Virus record (IMG/VR): IMGVR_UViG_3300050138_000259
Location: 1-31,961 of that record
DNA length: 31,961 nucleotides
Strand: one strand, 5' to 3'
Source: a virus
The notes under the pieces are model-generated. The model saw nothing but the letters and a program-made list of their open reading frames with translations. It ran no database searches and was not told where the DNA came from. A program made the translations under genes and the position numbers. Of this stretch, positions 201 to 26,402 are shown in pieces. Numbering within the stretch: the first letter of the stretch is position 1; every line of letters starts with the position of its first letter.

Positions 201-1982
201 ATGACACAGCAGGTCCTATTCAATGGTCAAGTCATCGTCCGCCCCGGCGCGTACACGAAGATCGACGCGTCACAGTTCCAGAACACGACGCTCTCAGGTC
301 TCGGGATCGTGGGTCTGATCGGAGAAGCCGACCAAGGTAAGCCGCGCACCGTCAACTCGTTCCTCACGCCGGCGGCGGTCAAGGCGTTCTACACCAGCGG
401 CGACCTCGTCGATGCCGCTGCGATGGTGGCCAACCCGGGCAACGATCCTCGCATCCCTACGGGCGCGCAACAGATCGTCTGTTACAAGGTCAACAGCTCG
501 ACGCAGTCGTCGCTGACCACGGCGCCGTTCGTGTTCACCTCGCTGCAGTACGGCGTGGCGATGAACAGCATCAGCATGTCGATCTCGGCCGGCGGTGGCG
601 GCTTCGTCGTCACCGTTCAGACGCTCGATGCATTCAACAACCTCCAGCAGGAGGTCAGCCCGACCCTCGGCGCGATCGGCAAGTTCACGATCCAGTACAC
701 CGGTACCGGCGCGGCAGCGACGTTGTCGACCACGGCGACGCAGCTCACCATCAACGTGACTGCGCCTGGCGTGGCCGATTCGCTGGCGCTCAACTACACC
801 GATTACCCGAACCTGACGCAACTGCTGCAGGCGATCTCGGTGAACGGCAAGTACACCGTCACGCCTCTGGTGACCAACGGTAATGCCATCGCGTCGAACT
901 CTCTCGACTCGGTCACTTCGGTCGACGTCAAGACTGCGCCGACCTCGATCTTCTCGAAGAACGCGGACATCTCGAACTACATCAACGCAAACAGCCAGAT
1001 CATCGGCTCGACGTTCACGCTGAATGCAGTGGCCTACACGGGTCCGCTCCTGACAACGGCGCTCGCAGGCGGCACGCGCGGTACGTCTGCGAATTCTGAT
1101 TGGGTGACGGGCTTCACGGCGTTGTCGACGACGCGCATCAATCAGATGATACCGCTTGCGTCCGCGGACGCGATCACCGCGCAAGGCACGTTCACGATCG
1201 TGTCGGTGCTCGCCGCTCTCGTCGCCTACGCGAAGCAGGCGTCGAGCACGGCAGGACAGAACGAAGTCCAAGGATGGGCTGGCATCGGTGGCACGCTCAC
1301 CGCGCTCATCACCGCGGCCAACCTCCAGAACAGCGAGCACTTGGTGCTGTTCGGTGAGAAGTCGGTTCGCGTTCGCAGTTCCGACGGTGCAGTGGTCTTC
1401 TTCCCCGAGTGGTCTACAGCGTGTGTCGCTGCCGGCATGCGTGCCGGCGCGCCGCTTGGTGAACCTCTCACGTGGAAGTTCGCCAACGTGCTCGGCGTCA
1501 GCTCGGATGCATCATGGTCCGAGACGAACAATGCGAACGTCGTGTCGTTGGAGTTGAACGGCGTCTCCGTGCTCAACACGATCTTGGGCAAGGGCTTCCG
1601 CTTCGACAAGATGATCACGACGTTCACGAAGCTCAACAACGATGCGTACACGGAGGAGACCATCGTCCAGATCTGGAAGCTGGTCTCCTACAACCTCCGT
1701 CAGGCGCTGCAGGATGCGTTCGTCGGTCGTGGTGGGACGCTCCAGCGCGTGTCCACCACTCCAGCTGTCGTCGCGTCGGTCATGCAGCCGCTGAAGCTCG
1801 CCGGCGCGATCACCGACAGTCTCGTGAACGGACAGCGTCTCAACGCATGGCGCAACGTCACGTGGGGCTTGAGCGGTGACACGATGACCGTTGCTGTCAC
1901 CGTCACACCCACCCCGGGCATCAACTACGTGCTCACCACGATCGTCCTCGTTCCTGCTCAGATCAGCGGGGCGGCGACCTAA
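201..1982 (+). CDS. Contractile tail sheath protein
   Basis: 593 residues, preceded by GAGGAG about 6 bases before the ATG. The sheath polymer surrounds the tail tube and contracts to drive it through the host envelope. The N-terminus (VIVRPGAYTKIDAS) matches the start of many phage sheath proteins. A central GTRGTSANSDW stretch near residues 292-302 precedes the conserved core. The C-terminal part has the family signature region with RFDKMITTF, NDAYTEETIVQIWKLV and LRQALQDAFVGRGG at residues 470-520, then a terminal beta strand arm (NYVLTTIVLVPA). Length is in the usual range for larger myophage sheaths. The tube gene follows 14 bases later, as in most contractile tails. Confidence 0.9.
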   Translation: MTQQVLFNGQVIVRPGAYTKIDASQFQNTTLSGLGIVGLIGEADQGKPRTVNSFLTPAAVKAFYTSGDLVDAAAMVANPGNDPRIPTGAQQIVCYKVNSSTQSSLTTAPFVFTSLQYGVAMNSISMSISAGGGGFVVTVQTLDAFNNLQQEVSPTLGAIGKFTIQYTGTGAAATLSTTATQLTINVTAPGVADSLALNYTDYPNLTQLLQAISVNGKYTVTPLVTNGNAIASNSLDSVTSVDVKTAPTSIFSKNADISNYINANSQIIGSTFTLNAVAYTGPLLTTALAGGTRGTSANSDWVTGFTALSTTRINQMIPLASADAITAQGTFTIVSVLAALVAYAKQASSTAGQNEVQGWAGIGGTLTALITAANLQNSEHLVLFGEKSVRVRSSDGAVVFFPEWSTACVAAGMRAGAPLGEPLTWKFANVLGVSSDASWSETNNANVVSLELNGVSVLNTILGKGFRFDKMITTFTKLNNDAYTEETIVQIWKLVSYNLRQALQDAFVGRGGTLQRVSTTPAVVASVMQPLKLAGAITDSLVNGQRLNAWRNVTWGLSGDTMTVAVTVTPTPGINYVLTTIVLVPAQISGAAT

Positions 1983-14072: not shown

Positions 14073-14516
14073 ATGGCGACGCAGCTCGACGGACCGCTCA
14101 TGAACACGCCAGGCGTCGGCGTGTTCTTCTCGAACCCGTGGGGCGGCGGCGTCCTCCAGAACCTCGCGCACTTCGCACCCTCGGTGAACCCGCCGGTGAT
14201 CACGATCGCGACGTCGTTGCCGCCGGCGACGGCCAACACACCGGTCGTCGTCACGATCACACCGACCAGTGGTGTTCCTCTACGCAAGGCGTGGATCGAC
14301 GCTCACTTCCCAGGGATCATCGGAGACGAGGCCATCCACACGGGCAATCGGTTCGGTGCCTATTACACGAATGGCGTGAACACGCGGGTCACGACCGTAG
14401 GCGGTGGGTTCACGTTCACGATCCTGCGCGACGGTGGTTGGCCTGTCGGATCGTTCCCACTCGTGACCTCATTCGATGTTTCTGCTACCGACACGATCGG
14501 TAACAGCACACCCTAA
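14073..14516 (+). CDS. Small beta-rich virion protein, unknown function
   Basis: 147 residues. The ATG follows the previous TAA with no gap, so it is probably translated by reinitiation. After a Gly/Pro-rich start (GVGVFFSNPWGGGV), residues 35-145 have alternating strands with Pro-Val turns (SVNPPVITIATSLPPATANT, VVVTITPTSG) that resemble an immunoglobulin or fibronectin-type beta sandwich. I do not recognise a specific family. The stop overlaps the next gene's ATG (TAATG). Placement between baseplate genes suggests an appendage or adaptor subunit. Confidence 0.6.
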   Translation: MATQLDGPLMNTPGVGVFFSNPWGGGVLQNLAHFAPSVNPPVITIATSLPPATANTPVVVTITPTSGVPLRKAWIDAHFPGIIGDEAIHTGNRFGAYYTNGVNTRVTTVGGGFTFTILRDGGWPVGSFPLVTSFDVSATDTIGNSTP

Positions 14517-15898
14517 TGTCGATCGTCACTCGCGACGCAACATCGGGATGGTGGGTTCCTGCAAGTGGTGCCGAGTGGACATCACTGCTCTCTGGTACTT
14601 CGCTCGCGATTCCTAACTTCGCGCTTCACGGATGTGGCGATGCGAGCGATCCGATCACCGATGCAATAGGTACCGATCCGCTAGGCGCAACAGGTGGGTT
14701 CCCTTCGTATCATCAGGCGGTAGCGGGCTGGTCACGTCTCGGATTTTCATTCCCTGATAATCAACCGTTTGTCGAAATAGGAAGCCACGCAGCGATCAAT
14801 CAGTCCACGTTGCAGCTCGTTTATGTAGCGCTAAATAACGTAGCCCCGTCATCTGGACGGACCGTTGTCTATGCACAAGGAGAGCTGCGTTTGCTGGCGA
14901 CCGGAGCGCTCCAATGGGTTGGGACTCCAGGTGGATCAACGTACGCAGCGGGATTTCACCCCATCCTGATTCGCGTCAATCAGACTGCGCTGACCAGCAA
15001 ATGCTTTACGGAGTTGGAAACGATCGTAGGTACGTACGCAGCGGTTTCAAATGCGATCCCGTTTTTTGGGGGTGCCGTCACTGGCAGCGCAGCCGCAACG
15101 TACCTCTATGGGGCGACGTGGAATGGTGCAGCGGCTGAATACTCCGATGCGAATATCGCGACACTCCAGGACCGACTAAAAAACGGCCCTGCGGTCACAT
15201 CGATCGCGGTCACGCCGACGAGCTTCTCGATCGCACCACTCGCCACGCAACAGATGACCGCGACGGCCACGCGTGCCGACGGGTCGACGTACGACTGCAC
15301 CGCGACCGCCACGTGGCTCAGCTCGGATCCCACGAAGGCGACGGTCAGCGCGACCGGGCTCGTTACCGGCGTCGCTGCGGGCACGGCGAACATCACCGCG
15401 TCGTTCACGAGCTTCAACGCGTCGATTGCAACGAGCCCTGCGCAAGTCGTGACGGTGGCCAGCGGTGCTGTGGTTCTCACATCGATCGCAGTCACGCCAG
15501 GTGGCTCGACCATCACCTTGCCTGGCACGCAACAGATGGTTGCAACCGGCACGTTCAGCGACACGCACACATCCGATCTCACTTCGACTGCGACGTGGGT
15601 GAGTTCTATTCCTGGCGTCGCGACGGTGAGCGCCACTGGTCTCGTGACCGGCATTTCTGCAGGGGTCACGAACATCACCGCGTCGCTCGGGTTGATCGTG
15701 TCGCCGCCACAGGCGCTCGACGTGATCAGCGCGACGAACGACAGCTACGGGGCGAAGGTGATGCGCCACATGCTACCTCCTCCGTACAAGCAAGACTTCA
15801 ACTCGCAGATCGGCAAGATCCTGACGGTAATCGGCCAGAGCGACAACATCATCGGAGGCCTCTTCGGTGCGGACGACTTCCTGCCTGATGAGGGATAG
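14516..15898 (+). CDS. Tail appendage protein with two bacterial Ig-like (BIg2) domains
   Basis: 460 residues, TAATG overlap with the preceding gene. Residues 1-215 resemble a concanavalin-like beta sandwich (WVGTPGGSTYAAGFHPILIR). Two Ig-like domains follow at about 227-316 and 321-401. Each opens with TSIAVTP and carries the BIg2 signature of ATWLSSDPTKATVSATGLVT or ATWVSSIPGVATVSATGLVT plus a G-[VI]-[AS]-A-G-x-[TA]-N-I-T-A-S end strand. Such domains decorate phage tails and bind carbohydrates weakly. The last 60 residues change style to a helical segment with MRHMLPPPYKQDFN and IGKILTVIGQSDNIIGGLFG, reminiscent of the start of tail wedge proteins of the gpI type. Use of less biased codons in the first half is noticeable. 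Confidence 0.7.
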   Translation: MSIVTRDATSGWWVPASGAEWTSLLSGTSLAIPNFALHGCGDASDPITDAIGTDPLGATGGFPSYHQAVAGWSRLGFSFPDNQPFVEIGSHAAINQSTLQLVYVALNNVAPSSGRTVVYAQGELRLLATGALQWVGTPGGSTYAAGFHPILIRVNQTALTSKCFTELETIVGTYAAVSNAIPFFGGAVTGSAAATYLYGATWNGAAAEYSDANIATLQDRLKNGPAVTSIAVTPTSFSIAPLATQQMTATATRADGSTYDCTATATWLSSDPTKATVSATGLVTGVAAGTANITASFTSFNASIATSPAQVVTVASGAVVLTSIAVTPGGSTITLPGTQQMVATGTFSDTHTSDLTSTATWVSSIPGVATVSATGLVTGISAGVTNITASLGLIVSPPQALDVISATNDSYGAKVMRHMLPPPYKQDFNSQIGKILTVIGQSDNIIGGLFGADDFLPDEG

Positions 15899-16927: not shown

Positions 16928-16965
16928 GCGCTGGCTATATCAGTCGAACCTGGAGGCGCATCTAA
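16924..16965 (+). other. 13-codon mini-ORF between the wedge and fibre genes
   Basis: ATG at 16924 overlaps the previous stop (ATGA), and TAA at 16963-16965 overlaps the fibre ATG (TAATG). It encodes MSAGYISRTWRRI and contains the GGAGG (16952-16956) that serves the fibre gene. Its first codons resemble the fibre gene's own start (MSAGYI against MSAGDI). It may be a coupling leader or a remnant of a duplicated start. Confidence 0.45.
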
Positions 16966-18578
16966 TGTCGGCTGGGGATATTTTAAATCCTTCGCGAGTC
17001 CGCACGCAGGCCAACGAGCGCCTCGACACGGTCGACGCTGACGCCTTGTCATCGTCCCCACGCGGATTCCTTGACGCGTTCTCTCGCGCGATTGCAGCGG
17101 CACCGCGCAACGTTGGTAGCAGCACACCGGTGGGTCTCATCTTCCAAGGCTTCGGGCTGACCCTCAACCCGACATCGGGCAGCGACAACAAGGTCCGCGT
17201 GCAGTCTCCAGTCGGTGTCGCCTTCGACTCCAACGGGCGGATGCTCATCAAGGAGAACGGGATCACCGTCGACCTCACGTTGGCGGCAGGCTCTTCGCAG
17301 ATCTACGCGTACTTCATCGAAGACAATGCATCGACGGTTGTGCGTCGTTTCATCTCGGTGACGTCTCCATACGCGGAAGCACCAAATGCGATCCCGACGC
17401 AGCTCAAAGGCGACGTCGGCTACTGGGTCCGCAGCGGCGACCAGACCTCGATCGTGTCGACCGACGTCGTCAACGGTCAGACGACACCGCTCTGCTTCCT
17501 CGGCGTCGCGATCAACACTGCCGGCGTCATCACGATGACCGGCTACGACGTCGTCAATGCACCCAACGGACAGTACGCGGTGAACAGGCTCACGAGCGTG
17601 CTTGCACCAACCACCGCGCCGCAAGGCAACGCCGCGAACGGATCCATCGCGCATCTGCACGGCCTCATCGTCGCTGCCCTCTACCAGATCGGCCAACATG
17701 CTTGGGCCGGCTCTGCGTTCCTGACACCAACGGCAGCGAACAACTTCGGGGCCTACCAGTCGCCGCAGTCGAGCGTTCAGTTTCTCTTCGAGAAGATCAG
17801 CGCAGGCATATTCGACAACGCGCTCGAAGCAACGATGCACTCGATCTTTCAATTCGCGAACTACCAGGGACACCCCAGGGTCGTGTTCGATCACCTCGGT
17901 TTCGAGACCGGCAACTATTCCGAGATCGAAGAGAACTGGCGTGCCGCTGCGCTCTCTAGCGACTGGTCGTTTTCAGCTGGCGGCGGCAGCGGCGGCGGAG
18001 CGGTGCCTGCAGATCCGACGGCTGCATTCACGCAGAGAAGTCTGGCTGTCACGTCTGGCACGACGACGATCACCCCTCCTGGGCTGTCATCGCAGTTCTT
18101 GAACTACGTCGACAACAACGCGTGCGTCGTACTCGAAGGGACGGTGCTCACACCAGCAGCGTTGCCGGTGCTCACCGACGACAATGCTTTTGGTTTTGTG
18201 TTCGCCAATGGCGCCGGCAACAACACACGCTTTGTCTTCTACTTCAGGTCCTCGCATCCAAACTGGCGCTGCCAGTTCTACTTGGCCAACACCCTCACCA
18301 CGGACACCGACTCTGGCATCGTCGTAGCGACCTCCACGCTCTATCGATTCCGGATCGAGTTGGTCGGCTCCAACAACAGCTCGGCAGCTGCCAACACGAT
18401 GACGGCGCGTTTCTTCATCAATGGCGCGTTGATCACGACGATCACCGCGGCGTCTTGGACTCCAGACAAAGTGAAGATCTACTTCGGCGAGATCCTCCTG
18501 AACACATCCAGTTTCATCTGGACGCTCGGTCGGGTCCGCTGCCAGTACATGCACATCCTGTCGAGCGACACGGTCTAG
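16965..18578 (+). CDS. Tail fibre-like protein with lectin-like C-terminal domain
   Basis: 537 residues from ATG 16965, with GGAGG 8 bases upstream. The N-terminal half (residues 1-337) contains an attachment-type region: LDAFSRAIAAAPRNVGSST, then beta strands with repeated Gly-Asn loops and AANGSIAHLHGLIVAALYQIG. A Gly/Ser linker (SAGGGSGGG) at about 338-346 separates it from a C-terminal jelly-roll-like domain (NAFGFVFANGAGNNTRFVFY, FYLANTLTTDTDSGIVVATS, TLYRFRIELVG, MTARFFINGALITTIT). That pattern is typical of concanavalin A-like domains and suggests glycan binding on the host surface. The gene ends on a CTAG shared with the stop of the convergent minus-strand gene. The receptor role is inferred. 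Confidence 0.68.
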   Translation: MSAGDILNPSRVRTQANERLDTVDADALSSSPRGFLDAFSRAIAAAPRNVGSSTPVGLIFQGFGLTLNPTSGSDNKVRVQSPVGVAFDSNGRMLIKENGITVDLTLAAGSSQIYAYFIEDNASTVVRRFISVTSPYAEAPNAIPTQLKGDVGYWVRSGDQTSIVSTDVVNGQTTPLCFLGVAINTAGVITMTGYDVVNAPNGQYAVNRLTSVLAPTTAPQGNAANGSIAHLHGLIVAALYQIGQHAWAGSAFLTPTAANNFGAYQSPQSSVQFLFEKISAGIFDNALEATMHSIFQFANYQGHPRVVFDHLGFETGNYSEIEENWRAAALSSDWSFSAGGGSGGGAVPADPTAAFTQRSLAVTSGTTTITPPGLSSQFLNYVDNNACVVLEGTVLTPAALPVLTDDNAFGFVFANGAGNNTRFVFYFRSSHPNWRCQFYLANTLTTDTDSGIVVATSTLYRFRIELVGSNNSSAAANTMTARFFINGALITTITAASWTPDKVKIYFGEILLNTSSFIWTLGRVRCQYMHILSSDTV

Positions 18579-19204
18579 TTCCTAAGTTTGATGACCACGT
18601 GCCACGTGGTGTTACCCATCGTGTTGTCGAGCTTCCAGACGATGTCACCGGTCCAGCTGTCTGTGGGCTCGACTAGCTCTAACGTCGTCGCAAGACGCGA
18701 CTCGTTGTTGTCTTGTCGAGCTGCGAGCACCAGCCCGCCGACTGCATCGAACACCTGAGGATCGGCCTTGGTCGCTCCGCTTGGGTCGTGCCAGATGATG
18801 TCGGTCAAGCTCGGCAAGATCGAGAGCGTGGTCGAGTTCAACTCGAACGGGCATCGCTGGTTCGCTGGCGAGCTGCCAACACCATCAGCCGTGCAGATCA
18901 CGGGACCGGGCCAACCCACCGAGTCGCTCTTGCCGTAGGCGCTCCACGTCACAGAGTAGTTGCCGGGCTCGGTCATCGGCGGGGCCTTCTGGTCGACGTC
19001 TACACAAGCTGCAGTCATGATCGCTAGGACGAGCAAGCCACCACGAATCGTCAGCTCGACGCTCTCTCGGATCACTGTGGCGAGCGTAGCGCCTCGTTTG
19101 TTAGCGAACGCCTGCCAGCGCTTGCGCTCGTTTTTGCTGACGCGAATCTCGATCCGATCGAGCGAAGTCTTGCCATCACGCGGCTTGGGGCCTGGTTTTG
19201 TCAT
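18575..19204 (-). CDS. RHH DNA-binding domain joined to lipoprotein-like segment (cargo gene)
   Basis: 209 residues on the minus strand, against the late operon. Residues 17-53 look like a ribbon-helix-helix domain: strand RIEIRVS, helix KNERKRWQAFANKRG, helix TLATVIRESVELTI, after a basic KPGPKPRDGK tail. Without a stop this runs into GGLLVLAIMTAAC, where Cys67 closes a lipobox-like motif. The rest (68-209) looks exported, with Cys104 and Cys118 able to pair. A GTG at 19075-19073 (codon 44) would give a protein starting MIRESVELTIRGG with a clean lipoprotein signal peptide. Either two products share one frame, or one membrane-tethered regulator is made. Position and orientation suggest a phage 'moron' affecting the host surface, for example superinfection exclusion; this is inference. 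Confidence 0.65.
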   Translation of the reverse strand: MTKPGPKPRDGKTSLDRIEIRVSKNERKRWQAFANKRGATLATVIRESVELTIRGGLLVLAIMTAACVDVDQKAPPMTEPGNYSVTWSAYGKSDSVGWPGPVICTADGVGSSPANQRCPFELNSTTLSILPSLTDIIWHDPSGATKADPQVFDAVGGLVLAARQDNNESRLATTLELVEPTDSWTGDIVWKLDNTMGNTTWHVVIKLRN

Positions 19205-19210
19205 GGGTGA

Positions 19211-19238
19211 ACTATAAATCGTCCGTACAAATTAACAA
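19211..19238 (-). promoter_or_regulatory. Minus-strand promoter for the RHH-lipoprotein gene
   Basis: On the minus strand TTGTTA (rc of 19233-19238), a 16-base spacer and TATAGT (rc of 19211-19216) fit a sigma70-type promoter (4/6 and 5/6 matches). The expected start of transcription falls at about 19204, the ATG itself, and there is no ribosome binding site, so the mRNA may be leaderless. Confidence 0.55.
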
Positions 19239-19254
19239 GGTAATTCGTCCGTAC
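19219..19254. promoter_or_regulatory. Direct-repeat operator candidate (TCGTCCGTAC twice)
   Basis: TCGTCCGTAC occurs at 19219-19228 and 19245-19254, 26 bases apart. The first copy lies inside the spacer of the minus-strand promoter and the second just upstream of its -35. RHH proteins bind short tandem sites and often repress their own promoter, so these are the likely autoregulatory sites of the adjacent RHH gene. They also lie upstream of the divergent + strand promoter. Confidence 0.5.
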
Positions 19255-19283
19255 GATTTACGATGACGCTGATCACCCCGAGG

Positions 19284-19312
19284 TTGCAGCAATAGCCGGC
19301 AACGTTTATGCT
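19284..19312 (+). promoter_or_regulatory. Plus-strand promoter candidate for the 19337 operon
   Basis: TTGCAG (19284-19289), a 17-base spacer and TATGCT (19307-19312) precede the gene at 19337 with a leader of about 18 bases. The hexamers match the sigma70 consensus only 3/6 and 4/6. The optimal spacing and the need to restart transcription after a minus-strand gene support it. Confidence 0.4.
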
Positions 19313-19336
19313 GCTTTAGCACCCGTAGGAGGTCCC

Positions 19337-19681
19337 ATGCTCGCAGTCCGAGGAACACCAGTGAACATCAACGGCCGGACCGGCGCACCCGCTGGTCAGC
19401 CTGGTCCTGCGGCTGTGACCGCGGTCCGCGTGCAGATCCCAGTTCCAAAGGGCCGACAGCTCGGCGGGACGCCGATCGCACCGGCTACTACGTACGCGCG
19501 CTACCTGCGCATCTTCAACACGGATGCCACCAACAACCTCCTGGTGAGCTTCCTGGACGACACACAGATCACCCTCAAGCCCGGCGTCGACAGGGAGTGG
19601 GCCGGCGAGATCCCGTTCTTCACGGTGCAAGCGTCAGCTGCTACCGTTCAATGGGAAGCGTACGCGATCGTAAGTGCTTGA
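19337..19681 (+). CDS. Small beta-rich protein, unknown function
   Basis: 114 residues, with AGGAGG four bases before the ATG. It starts with a Gly/Pro-rich stretch (GRTGAPAGQPGPAAV) followed by a compact beta pattern: VRVQIPVPKGRQLGG, RYLRIFNTDATNNLLVSFLD, TITLKPG-type turn and VQWEAYAIVSA. This resembles small virion decoration or collar-type proteins but I cannot assign a family. It is the first gene after the minus-strand cargo gene and likely starts a new transcript. The next gene begins 17 bases later. Confidence 0.6.
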   Translation: MLAVRGTPVNINGRTGAPAGQPGPAAVTAVRVQIPVPKGRQLGGTPIAPATTYARYLRIFNTDATNNLLVSFLDDTQITLKPGVDREWAGEIPFFTVQASAATVQWEAYAIVSA

Positions 19682-21605: not shown

Positions 21606-21887
21606 ATGTTGGACACACAAGTCGCGCAGCTGTTCGCGACCTATCCTCGCTTGCTGCAGCTCATGTCGGAGCCGACGTCGAATGGCGCGGCGCTGCACGT
21701 GTGGTACGCGCAAGACGGACACGAGCCATCCGACGATCCGACGACGTGGCTCTCTGACGCATGCGATCTGGACGACCTTCCTGACATGGGTGGGTCATCC
21801 AAAGCTGACTTGGACGCGTTCCGATCGTTGTGCGGAGCGCTCGACGTCACGACGATCTGGTACCGGCCTGCGGCGGTCGTCTCGTGA
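21606..21887 (+). CDS. Small hypothetical protein before the paralogue array
   Basis: 93 residues from ATG 21606, with AGGAGG at 21596-21601; an earlier in-frame start has no such site. It is acidic and mostly helical at first (TQVAQLFATYPRLLQLMSEP), then loop-rich (HEPSDDPTTWLSDACDLDDL), and ends in a possible strand (VTTIWYRPAAVV). I do not recognise a family. The stop overlaps the GTG of the first paralogue (GTGA), so the two are probably translationally coupled and functionally linked. Confidence 0.55.
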   Translation: MLDTQVAQLFATYPRLLQLMSEPTSNGAALHVWYAQDGHEPSDDPTTWLSDACDLDDLPDMGGSSKADLDAFRSLCGALDVTTIWYRPAAVVS

Positions 21888-23068
21888 TCACGCAACACGA
21901 TTTCCGTTCGCCCCACGTCCTCGGCGTGCTGCCGCGCTCGATCTACGACCACGACTTCGAGGTCAAGGCGATGGTCAGGGGCATCGAGATGGTAACGGGC
22001 TGTCTGCATCCCGTGTTCATCACTGCCGCGCGCCGCGTGATCGGCATCGCGCAGGGACGTGGTCCGTTCTCGGACAACGTCCGCTTCATGCGGCTACCAC
22101 GTCGACGGCAGCAGGGACAGAACCTCGCCGCGCTCAAGAGCTTCTACGAGATGCCTTGGCCGAGCGACGACGAGATGCGGCTGATGCCATTCATCGACTC
22201 GAACAACCTCATCAACGCACTCTCCGCAGGGCAGTTTGGCCGGACGTACTTCGCGAAGACGCCGACGACGACCGGCGTTGCGAACACTTGGTACGATCTC
22301 TGGCCGGTCGCCGGCAATCCAGCCTCTGGCCTGATCAACGGCACAGCGAAGACCGCGAACATCTTTACCGACGCGAGCACCGGCGCGATCAGCCACCGCG
22401 GCAACGTGTCGACGGCAACCAAGCACATGTTGTCGAAGTGGGCTGTGACGACGGCAAACACGCCGATGCTCATGCTCTACGACCGCGTGGTGTCGTACGA
22501 CCAGAATCCGTACTCGGCCTCCGTCAACGAGACGATGACCAACACGAACGTGGCGGCGCGTTACAACGCTGGAGCCCCGGGACTTTTGATCATCTGCTGC
22601 GTCTGCACGGTGAATGGAGCCACCGCCGTAACCTTCACGCAGCTTCGATACACGAACGATCAAGGCATCGCGCTGCAGACCATGCCGACGACACCGACGG
22701 TGAACATCGTGGTCTCTGGTGCAGCGCCTACCGCGACACTTGGTGCACGCGTGATCGCACCGAGCACGGGCGCGACTCCTTGCTGGGGACCGTTCCTGCC
22801 ACTTGCCAAGAACGACTACGGCACCCGACTGATCAACGACTACACGCCAAGTGCCGCGAATACCGGCACGGTCACGTTCGCACTGGTACACCCAATCACC
22901 GAGGTGATGCTTCCCGTCGCGGCCAGTCCGACAGAGATGGACTGCGTCTACCAGATCCCAGAGCTGGAGCAGATCTTCGACGGAGCGTGCATCGCGATGA
23001 TGGCCTACCAGGTCGCGACGACTCTCTACACCCTCCAGGGGAGCATCCGCTTCGGTTGGAGCACCTAG
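21884..23068 (+). CDS. Tandem virion-type paralogue 1
   Basis: 394 residues from the GTG at 21884 (GTGA overlap); upstream extension of the frame is only overlap with the previous gene. It is the first of four related consecutive genes. Shared landmarks are YDRVVSYDQNP near residues 200-210, a following MTNTN...ARY...PGLLI segment, a TYTN-type strand, and near the C-terminus LPLAKNDYGTRLINDYT with VTFALVHPIT. These beta-rich landmarks resemble a large-phage virion family that I cannot name. It has the longest N-terminal domain of the four (HVLGVLPRSIYDHDFEVKAM), which may attach it to a different site. It is probably a decoration or fibre subunit. Confidence 0.6.
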   Translation: MITQHDFRSPHVLGVLPRSIYDHDFEVKAMVRGIEMVTGCLHPVFITAARRVIGIAQGRGPFSDNVRFMRLPRRRQQGQNLAALKSFYEMPWPSDDEMRLMPFIDSNNLINALSAGQFGRTYFAKTPTTTGVANTWYDLWPVAGNPASGLINGTAKTANIFTDASTGAISHRGNVSTATKHMLSKWAVTTANTPMLMLYDRVVSYDQNPYSASVNETMTNTNVAARYNAGAPGLLIICCVCTVNGATAVTFTQLRYTNDQGIALQTMPTTPTVNIVVSGAAPTATLGARVIAPSTGATPCWGPFLPLAKNDYGTRLINDYTPSAANTGTVTFALVHPITEVMLPVAASPTEMDCVYQIPELEQIFDGACIAMMAYQVATTLYTLQGSIRFGWST

Positions 23069-24169
23069 GTGCAGCTCGCGCCTGCGATCCATAAAGTGCG
23101 GCGTAAGGCGCGCTACAGCGAATGCGATGATGCTCGCGCGATCGTGCGAGCGGCGCACGTGTGGCGCAACGAACGCGCATGGGTGGCCATCATGCACGGT
23201 GGGCGCGTCATCGCGAACATGAAGGGCGATCCGGAAAACAACCGGACGCTGATCCTCGGCACCGATGTTCCGTACGGGTCGTACGACGACGCAGTCGCGA
23301 AGTCGTCGGGCGGCAAGCAGTACGGACCGATCTACTTCATGGACTTCATCAGCACGTCGATCGTGATCGACTGCTGGTACGACACATGGGGCTGCAGCGG
23401 AATCCCGCAGGCTGGCAACTGGTCTGGTACCGCGCTCACCGCGCGTCCGTTCACAGCGTCAACACCAGGCGCGTTGTACACGGGCCCGGCAGTCTCGCCG
23501 CAGAAGAAGTACCTCAAGCGCGCCGCGTGTTTCAACGAAGACGCGACGATGCTGGCCACGCTGATCTACGACCGCGTGCTCGCGTACGACTCGTGCACGA
23601 TGACCGCGGGCTCGCAGTCGATGACGAACACGCTCCCAGCAACGCGCTACATCTCGACAGGCGACCCCGGGCTTCAGATCTTCATCGAAGGCCAGACCGT
23701 CCACAGCTCGACCGCGGCGAACCTGACGGTGCTCACGTATGCCAACCAGGCAGGCACTGGCGGGCAAACCGTACCGACGACGCCGACGCTGACCGTGATC
23801 CCGAGCATCGCAGCGCCGACTTCAACGCTTGGCGCGCTAGGCATCATCCAGCAGAACGGAATCACGACGAAGAACCTCGGGCAGATCTACCTCAACCTTC
23901 AAGCGGGTGACCTCGGCGTCAGGTCGATCACGAACTTCACGTTCTCGGCCGCGCCGACGGGCACGAACAGCTTCGTGCTTCAGTTCCCGCTGATGCTGAA
24001 CACGGACGTTGCGATCCAAGGGATGGTGTCGGACTACGAGTTCCTATCGGGGCTCGAAGCGATCAACAAGCGGATCTACGACGACGCTTGCCTGTCGCTC
24101 ATGACGAACAGCCACGTGACTGCGACGCCTGCGTTCCTCCATGGAATGATGGAGTTTGGATCCACGTGA
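23069..24169 (+). CDS. Tandem virion-type paralogue 2
   Basis: 366 residues from a GTG directly after the previous TAG, with TTGGAG about 8 bases upstream. It aligns by landmarks with its neighbours: MQLAPAIHKVRRKARYSECD at the start, IMHGGRVIANMKGD, YDRVLAYDSCTM, MTNTLPATRYISTGDPGLQI, LTYANQAGTGGQ and, near the end, LNLQAGDLGVRSITNFTFSA. The final third ends with IYDDACLSLMTNS, shared in form with paralogues 3 and 4. No enzyme motif is visible. Divergence among the copies is large at the N-terminus and in loops and small at the strand motifs, as expected for surface proteins diversified after duplication. Confidence 0.62.
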   Translation: MQLAPAIHKVRRKARYSECDDARAIVRAAHVWRNERAWVAIMHGGRVIANMKGDPENNRTLILGTDVPYGSYDDAVAKSSGGKQYGPIYFMDFISTSIVIDCWYDTWGCSGIPQAGNWSGTALTARPFTASTPGALYTGPAVSPQKKYLKRAACFNEDATMLATLIYDRVLAYDSCTMTAGSQSMTNTLPATRYISTGDPGLQIFIEGQTVHSSTAANLTVLTYANQAGTGGQTVPTTPTLTVIPSIAAPTSTLGALGIIQQNGITTKNLGQIYLNLQAGDLGVRSITNFTFSAAPTGTNSFVLQFPLMLNTDVAIQGMVSDYEFLSGLEAINKRIYDDACLSLMTNSHVTATPAFLHGMMEFGST

Positions 24170-25275
24170 TGGATGTCCAACACGCGCCGCACGTGCGCAC
24201 GCTCGCAAAGAGCCGGTGGAACCCGTCTGCTGTCGAACGTTCGATCACGCAGGCGGCCTTCAGCGCACGCGGGATCCCGCGGTGGATGCCCGCGATGCAC
24301 GACGGTCAGGTCGTCGCGGCAGTCCGCGGATACGCCGGTGGTGTCGGCACCGAAGTCGCGCCGCTCACACACAAGCAGTGGTGCGGCTTCCAAGACATCC
24401 CCAACATGCGTCAGCAGATCAAGAACGGGGCACACACCCGCGTCTTCATCTGGAAGGACAACTCGACTGGTGGCACTGGTCAGATCTGGGAAGACCTGTG
24501 GTGCTGCCAAGGCTCATCAGCAGCCGGCACGTACGCGGGCACTGCGAACACCCTTCGTCAGTTCGACAACACGACGGCAGGCGGCCTCTGGACCGGGCCA
24601 TTAATTCCGGCGACGAGCCAGACGCGACACGTCGTCGGCTGGAACATGTCGATGACCGTCGCCGAGAACATCTGCACGATGATTCTCTACGACCGAGTCG
24701 CGACGTACGACGGTTGCTCGATCACGACGAGCATCACAACGCTCGACAACACGCTACCTCCTCTGCGCTACGTCGCCGCGGGACAGGAAGGTCTCCTCGT
24801 GTCCGTCTCGGCCAGCGCAGCGTTTGGTGCCGTGGCATCGACGCTGTCGGCGATGACGTTCACCGACAACCAGGGCAACGCTGCCGTGTCGCAGACGCCG
24901 GGCTACACGCAGAACTACTTCACGAGCGCTCCGGCACCTACGACCACTAAAGCAGCATCGGTCTGCGTGCCCTTCGACACGTTGAGCCTCATAATTTTCA
25001 CGCCAGTACTACCGCTCGCAGCGAACTGCTCCGGCGTGCGAAAAGTCGAGTCCTTCACCGCGAGCGTCATCAACACCGGTACGACGTGCTGGGCGCTGAT
25101 CCACCCGATCGCAGTGATTCCGGTGATGGGCGGTTCAGAGCTTGCCGTCGAGCTGCACAAGACCATGCGTGCGATGGAGCGTGTCTACGACGACGCGTGT
25201 CTGTCGGTCCTGACTCAGACGGTCAACGGGACGGGCTCTGGCGTCTTTGGTCACGTGAAGATGGCACACGGATGA
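24169..25275 (+). CDS. Tandem virion-type paralogue 3
   Basis: 368 residues from ATG 24169, which overlaps the previous TGA by one base; GTG 24166 is an alternative. It keeps the array's landmarks: MPAMHDGQVVAAVRGY, YDRVATYDGCSI, LDNTLPPLRYVAAGQEGLLV, MTFTDNQGNAA and LPLAANCSGVRKVESFTASV, then VYDDACLSVLTQT. It has several Cys residues (WCGFQD, LWCCQGSS, ENICTMI), more than an average phage structural protein. Like the others it probably forms part of an outer virion structure; the precise role is unknown. Confidence 0.62.
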   Translation: MDVQHAPHVRTLAKSRWNPSAVERSITQAAFSARGIPRWMPAMHDGQVVAAVRGYAGGVGTEVAPLTHKQWCGFQDIPNMRQQIKNGAHTRVFIWKDNSTGGTGQIWEDLWCCQGSSAAGTYAGTANTLRQFDNTTAGGLWTGPLIPATSQTRHVVGWNMSMTVAENICTMILYDRVATYDGCSITTSITTLDNTLPPLRYVAAGQEGLLVSVSASAAFGAVASTLSAMTFTDNQGNAAVSQTPGYTQNYFTSAPAPTTTKAASVCVPFDTLSLIIFTPVLPLAANCSGVRKVESFTASVINTGTTCWALIHPIAVIPVMGGSELAVELHKTMRAMERVYDDACLSVLTQTVNGTGSGVFGHVKMAHG

Positions 25276-26402
25276 TGCACCCAGCTCCAGCCATCCACGT
25301 CGCACGACGAACGCGCACGAGCGATCACGATCTCGAACGCGTAGCCCGCAACGTCGCCAAGAACGCGTATGCGGTCGGGCGCTTGATGCCGATCGTCTAC
25401 GAGGGTCGGATCGTCGGCTGGTGTGGCTGGTCGTTCAGAGAGAACTGTGCGGTCACGCTTCATCACAAGCCGTGGATGCGGACGTGGATCGACCGCAATG
25501 GTTTGCTTCTTGGGTTTCCGTCAGTCGACGACATCATCAACCAGGTCACGAACAACGGATCTCTTCGACAGGTCTTGTGGTTCAAGTCGAACTACGGAAC
25601 AGCCGCCACCGCGAACGCGTGGTGCCACTACTACGCCGTCGGCGGATACCCATGCGCCGGGCTGTGGAATGGGACTACGTTCACGGCGCGTCGTCACGAC
25701 GACACTGAACAAGGCGCGATGATGCACGGCGGCAACGTGTCGCCGAAGACCAAGCACCTGCTCAGCACCGGGTTCTTCTCGGGAGCTACCGCGTCATCAG
25801 ACAACCCAGTGGCCGTCTTGTACGACATGGTGATCTCGTACGACGCGTGCGTGGTCACGTCGACGCCAACCAACTTCACGAACACGAACACCGCGCTCAG
25901 GTACATCGGCGCAGGCGACCCTGGTCTGCAGATCATGAACTGCGCGAACAGCGCGCTGACGGGATTGATCAACTTCACCACGTACAAGTACACGAGCATC
26001 GGAGGCACCGCAGGTCAGGCCGTGCCTGTCACGATGGTCGAGATGAGCGACTCCACGGTGCCATCTGATGGAACTCCGGCGATCACCGCGATGGGTCTCT
26101 TGAACACGAACCTGCGTTCTGTATTAAACGCTCCGCTCGTGAATGGTGACAGCGGCGTGAAGCAGCTCGACTCCCTAACGATGGCCAGCACCGTCACCGA
26201 CACGATCAATCACATCCTCGGTTTCCAACTCGCCTGGTTTCATGCGAGCGGCGGCACCGAGGCGCGCCACAGCTTCGACTTCGTCACTGGCGCGAACGCG
26301 TTGCCCCAGATCAAAGACGGTGCCTGCCTCACGCTCGCCATGATGCTCGAAGTTGTGGGTCATCAGTGGAACGCGAACCTGAACGTCGGCTGGAGTAGCT
26401 AG
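25272..26402 (+). CDS. Tandem virion-type paralogue 4
   Basis: 376 residues from ATG 25272 (ATGA overlap); a second ATG follows directly. The start, MMHPAPAIHVARRTRTSDHD, resembles that of paralogue 2 (LAPAIHKVRRKAR). Landmarks: MPIVYEGRIVGWCGW, LYDMVISYDACVV, FTNTNTALRYIGAGDPGLQI, TYKYTSIGGTAGQ, and APLVNGDSGVKQLDSLTMAS. The C-terminus (IKDGACLTLAMMLEV, then NLNVGWSS) parallels the ends of the other copies (SIRFGWST in paralogue 1). The stop overlaps the GTG of the repeat protein that follows, suggesting that the array and the repeat protein are expressed together. Confidence 0.62.
   Translation: MMHPAPAIHVARRTRTSDHDLERVARNVAKNAYAVGRLMPIVYEGRIVGWCGWSFRENCAVTLHHKPWMRTWIDRNGLLLGFPSVDDIINQVTNNGSLRQVLWFKSNYGTAATANAWCHYYAVGGYPCAGLWNGTTFTARRHDDTEQGAMMHGGNVSPKTKHLLSTGFFSGATASSDNPVAVLYDMVISYDACVVTSTPTNFTNTNTALRYIGAGDPGLQIMNCANSALTGLINFTTYKYTSIGGTAGQAVPVTMVEMSDSTVPSDGTPAITAMGLLNTNLRSVLNAPLVNGDSGVKQLDSLTMASTVTDTINHILGFQLAWFHASGGTEARHSFDFVTGANALPQIKDGACLTLAMMLEVVGHQWNANLNVGWSS

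Follow-up and report, generated by a model that had tools for sequence, protein, structure and literature searches.

How can one unbroken reading frame of a phage lead from a DNA-binding domain directly into a lipoprotein signal, and what could such a protein do? The question is raised by a minus-strand frame in the window (the whole stretch of 31,961 nt analysed here), carried by an uncultured contractile-tailed phage.

The gene and its insertion site

The gene and its immediate neighbours are arranged as follows:

16965-18578, plus strand: probable receptor-binding/tail-fibre gene beside the slot; its product is conserved over the N-terminal ~270 aa and variable in the C-terminal part
18575-18578: CTAG, the stop codons of two convergent genes overlapping by 4 nt (same overlap in the related locus L006 at 17024-17027)
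18575-19204, minus strand: accessory gene, RHH (ribbon-helix-helix)-lipoprotein fusion of 209 aa with an ATG start and no internal stop; absent from relatives
19337-19681, plus strand: conserved late gene that borders the slot at its far end and has a strong Shine-Dalgarno sequence (AGGAGG)

The length of the frame alone is no evidence of coding, since the window is GC-rich and long spurious ORFs (up to 376 aa) occur in it frequently. Scored with the codon usage of the neighbouring genes, it was the best of the six frames over the whole stretch, at 0.28 bits/codon (0.26-0.65 in accepted genes). The same frame was also the best in each part separately, with 0.12 for the RHH part and 0.32 for the C-terminal one, and therefore no frameshift joins them. 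Within a short stretch at the junction a plus-strand frame scored slightly higher (0.33 vs 0.18), which we regarded as noise. It should be noted that one of the training genes (21682-23094) had been read in a wrong frame (true frame 21830-23068), so that the contrast in codon score is probably weakened.

Homologues of the two flanking genes are separated by 9-32 bp in four lineages of relatives (L008, L009/L018, L019/L020 and L021); the same gap measures about 760 bp in the window, and in L006 it holds another minus-strand gene. Because the site is empty in four lineages, we interpret it as an accessory-gene slot located directly behind the probable receptor-binding gene. The initial annotation was right to describe the gene as cargo opposed to the late operon. 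The product of 16965-18578 has no Pfam or PHROG match, and its assignment follows from the conserved N-terminus and variable C-terminus, the usual pattern of receptor-binding and fibre proteins.

The L006 gene (17024-17578, minus strand) encodes an orphan lipoprotein of 184 aa, beginning with MKKIIITLITTLVGC, without an RHH or any other DNA-binding domain; its upstream region is AT-rich and has no Shine-Dalgarno sequence. No relatedness between the window and L006 lipoproteins was detected, and the 4-nt CTAG stop-stop overlap is nevertheless identical in both. The L006 lipoprotein weakly resembles the fibre protein of the same locus.

Elsewhere in the window, the plus-strand genes 21830-23068, 23069-24169 and 25086-26402 form an expanded family of paralogues (29-37% identity) with no significant Pfam or PHROG match, and L008 carries at least two members of it. 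The product of 14516-15898 (plus strand) is an Ig-domain protein, of which several relatives keep just the C-terminal ~55 residues.

Three independent tests, namely codon score, absence from relatives and the RHH matches described below, confirm that the ORF is real and runs from the RHH domain into the lipoprotein signal; the frame reported as unbroken in the initial annotation is intact. No relative of the whole protein, its N-terminal 80 residues or its C-terminal part was found in viral contigs, GTDB genomes, phages or plasmids. Neither the fusion join nor the C-terminal domain has a homologue in any collection searched, the fusion being present in a single contig, and we found no description of an RHH-lipoprotein fusion in the open-access literature. 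Scanning genomes with a baseplate alignment revealed no host; no tyrosine integrase was present across nine contigs, and a terminase search found nothing.

Since the fusion is a singleton, a recent accidental joining of an RHH gene and a lipoprotein gene has to be weighed. A deletion or a lost stop, either in the phage itself or through the assembly, would have caused it, and one of the halves would no longer serve a purpose. The lack of any homologue with the same join and the solitary lipoprotein of L006 are in line with such an accident, but the codon bias is continuous in one frame across both halves, the RHH helix pattern stays in frame up to the signal, and the promoter and operator-like repeats look intact. 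We consider this origin unlikely.

The RHH domain and the lipoprotein-type signal

Three parts were distinguished within the protein:

19046-19165, minus strand: ribbon-helix-helix domain, residues 14-53 (helices 24-37 and 41-55), from family matches, fold and PDB matches
19004-19054, minus strand: lipoprotein-type signal LTIRGGLLVLAIMTAAC, residues 51-67, from a lipobox rule and hydrophobicity
18578-19006, minus strand: predicted exported domain from Cys67, with Cys104 and Cys118; an orphan with no family match or relative

The RHH pattern, noted initially at residues about 17-53, is supported by weak but concordant matches at one place and by confidently predicted helices. Residues 13-51 match the RelB antitoxin family (E 0.0013; 19.0 bits vs a curated cut-off of 50), DUF6290 (E 0.0054; 17.3 bits vs a curated cut-off of 27), PHROGs 13890 and 14166 (E 0.0012-0.0015) and the Arc-like repressor family (E 0.03). 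Because all scores lie below the curated cut-offs where such exist, we claim only an RHH fold and no named RHH family. The best phage tblastn match to the region is annotated as ribbon-helix-helix (E 0.8), and among the nearest ones are Gordonia phage proteins that carry a ribbon-helix-helix or Arc-like repressor annotation (E 0.8-2).

An AF2 fold of residues 1-56, computed without an alignment, gave helices 24-37 and 41-55 with pLDDT of about 84-92; the RHH strand forms only in the dimer and was not modelled in this single chain. RHH proteins make up nearly all PDB matches of this fold, most of them at 0.8-1.5 A; they include ParG, PutA, CopG, ORF56, NikA, Arc, MatP, AmrZ and antitoxins. The E-values are 0.8 or higher because the chain is short. 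The strand-helix-helix core of ~45 residues that characterizes RHH proteins was recognized, and the usual hydrophobic positions of helix 2 (L41, V44, I45, V49 and I53) are read in the frame that also encodes the signal. The structure prediction proposed in the initial annotation was informative for the N-terminal part, whereas the full-length fold was not (mean pLDDT 36.7). In L010 a separate 259-aa protein (871-1650, minus strand) has an N-terminal RHH-like domain 33% identical to that of the window over residues 16-58, and no export signal was noticed in it.

Residues 55-68 form an uncharged hydrophobic run of 14 residues that ends in MTAAC-V, as the initial annotation had seen in placing Cys67 at the end of a hydrophobic segment. 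The sequence LLVLAIMTAAC fits the relaxed lipobox pattern, {DERK}(6)-[LIVMFWSTAG](2)-[LIVMFYSTAGCQ]-[AGS]-C, and fails the strict one, [LVI][ASTVI][GAS]C, owing to the T at -3, an unusual residue there. An equally good signal appeared in 36 of 20,000 shuffles of the 209-aa protein and in one of 488 ORFs besides the two at the slot. When a rule combining a hydrophobic stretch with the lipobox was applied to 490 six-frame ORFs of the window and eight related loci, it selected three: the 18575-19204 gene, L006 17024-17578 at the same site, and a weak one. These two selections at one site are the strongest support for a lipoprotein. Counted from the ATG, Cys67 lies beyond the distance of about 15-35 residues from the N-terminus that is expected of a lipoprotein cysteine, and initiation inside the ORF, at codon 44 or 51, would be needed to bring it into that range; for this reason we claim lipoprotein-like working and not membership among lipoproteins. 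The exported domain gave no match in Pfam, NCBIfam or PHROGs and no relative in phages or viral contigs, and nothing in its sequence points to a receptor.

The initial annotation regarded a DNA-binding fold and a lipoprotein signal as normally incompatible. This objection does not hold, since ToxR/CadC proteins share that layout; a cytoplasmic N-terminal domain does not prevent N-in insertion of the segment that follows, so the RHH domain and the export signal are topologically compatible. The same layout suggests a membrane-tethered regulator of the ToxR/CadC type, in which no cleavage would occur, the outside domain would sense and the RHH domain would act from the membrane. The order of parts is that of the transmembrane transcription regulators described in a large survey, which counts more than 100 kinds of DNA-binding domains among them (PMC10269533). 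Two cysteines would lie outside, and membrane insertion of residues 51-70 is roughly estimated at about 0.1 kcal/mol. The best 19-residue mean hydropathy is 1.72; a stable TM helix has about 18-22 residues. However, the uncharged run has only 14 residues and ends exactly in the lipobox, and the L006 gene at the same site encodes a lipoprotein without a DNA-binding domain. The run thus looks more like a signal peptide than like a ToxR-type anchor, which weakens the tethered regulator offered by the initial annotation, and we find it improbable.

Promoter, repeats and start codons

Upstream of the gene we revealed the following elements:

19211-19238, minus strand: sigma-70-like promoter TTGTTA-16-TATAGT, the -10 ending 6 nt before the ATG
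19215-19234: operator-like copy 1, which covers the promoter spacer and the adjoining ends of the -35 and -10 boxes
19241-19260: operator-like copy 2, a near-palindrome (16/20) just upstream of the -35

The promoter-like site is the only one in 18400-19500 (one found, 0.3 expected). No Shine-Dalgarno sequence above background precedes the ATG, and many neighbouring late genes have strong ones. Together with the distance of just 6 nt between the -10 and the ATG, this makes a leaderless mRNA probable; in bacteria, leaderless genes are marked by TA-like signals some 10-12 bp ahead of the start codon (PMC3160421; PMC3898074). The two 20-bp near-palindromes lie 26 bp apart and are identical at 17/20 positions, as compared with a maximum of 15/20 in 500 mononucleotide shuffles. 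Their exact core, TCGTACGGACGA, was absent from all the relatives' loci searched for it. Since relatives have just 9-32 bp between the flanking genes, the promoter-like site and the repeats arrived with the insert.

Two products might be made from the one frame, the full-length RHH protein and a lipoprotein from an internal start (GTG44 or CTG51). Cys67 would then become Cys24 or Cys17, respectively, in agreement with the classic length and charge rules, and CTG51 would give a textbook-like signal, MTIRGGLLVLAIMTAAC. The GTG at 19075 (codon 44), proposed initially as the start of a separate lipoprotein, does exist, but it has little support, its sole Shine-Dalgarno-like pairing being 12 nt away. 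At CTG51 (19054) GAGAGA stands 6-8 nt upstream (-4.2 kcal/mol), but CTG starts are rare, and neither internal site stands out from random positions, where the 5% and 10% quantiles are -6.5 and -5.8 kcal/mol. A second product is thus doubtful. We set aside the idea that a stop-start overlap of ATGA type had once stood at 19054, where the sequence is now CTGA, as the RHH helix pattern runs past it in frame.

Possible mode of action and comparison with known systems

Our preferred reading, to which we give a little less than an even chance, is an accessory gene that represses itself and supplies, from the C-terminal half of its product, a lipoprotein of the cell envelope. This lipoprotein would probably be a receptor blocker similar to Llp of T5. 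We infer its start site, export, cleavage and autorepression as follows. A moron-like gene, placed in the slot that separates the probable receptor-binding gene from the late gene after it, would be expressed from a promoter of its own in the direction opposite to both, probably as a leaderless mRNA. The RHH N-terminus would stay in the cytoplasm, followed by the lipoprotein signal at residues 51-67, and the C-terminal domain would be exported and lipid-anchored at Cys67; Lgt and LspA could act there behind a cytoplasmic N-terminal domain. After lipidation and cleavage the RHH part would remain inside and, as the full-length precursor or the cleaved fragment, would bind the two near-palindromes at the promoter and keep expression low. 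The envelope part would most likely keep other phages of this kind from adsorbing. Receptor blocking is suggested by the gene position and by analogy with Llp of T5 and BF23, which makes the superinfection exclusion proposed initially a sensible guess.

A bolder version, which seems improbable to us, is that the signal-peptide side of the precursor is itself the repressor, and that cleavage at Cys67 sends the lipoprotein out and leaves the RHH part behind in the cell, so that the rate of export is read directly as repression of this gene or its relief. If so, a signal peptide would also serve as a transcription factor, and the feedback from the synthesis of an envelope protein to the repression of its gene would be very short.

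The predicted N-terminal part resembles Arc/CopG-type repressors in its RHH-type fold of about 53 residues and in the paired near-palindromic sites over its own promoter, but differs from them in that the chain enters an export signal after the RHH domain. Known Arc/CopG-type RHH repressors end after this domain or continue into cytoplasmic domains. Its predicted layout also recalls ToxR/CadC regulators, with a DNA-binding domain in the cytoplasm at the N-terminus, a single segment that would cross the membrane, and two cysteines in the part outside; unlike them, it has RHH instead of a winged helix, a shorter hydrophobic segment with a lipobox, and no known target genes.

The putative product also resembles the Ltp lipoproteins of Streptococcus thermophilus phage TP-J34, which are phage-encoded surface lipoproteins that take part in superinfection exclusion (PMC3952083). 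Ltp lipoproteins come from temperate phages and are not known to carry an RHH domain.

In T5, llp is a neighbour of oad, the receptor-binding gene, but lies on the other strand; it has its own promoter and encodes a product that blocks the receptor FhuA (PMC9586334). Unlike the window protein with its RHH domain, Llp has no DNA-binding domain; llp diverges from oad, whereas 18575-19204 converges with its neighbour, and tblastn of the C-terminal part matched no T5-like phage. What the window shares with Llp of T5 and BF23, and with Cor of T1 and phi80, is a small gene, here for a putative lipoprotein, that has its own promoter and lies on the other strand beside a receptor-binding gene (here probable). 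In the Llp/Cor systems, too, the versions found in different phages are unrelated; BF23 Llp is unrelated in sequence to T5 Llp and has the same role (PMC4728585). If the proposed reading is true, these contractile-tailed phages may combine a receptor-binding gene with an exchangeable lipoprotein, as T5 and BF23 do, and exclusion proteins could then be found by position alone.
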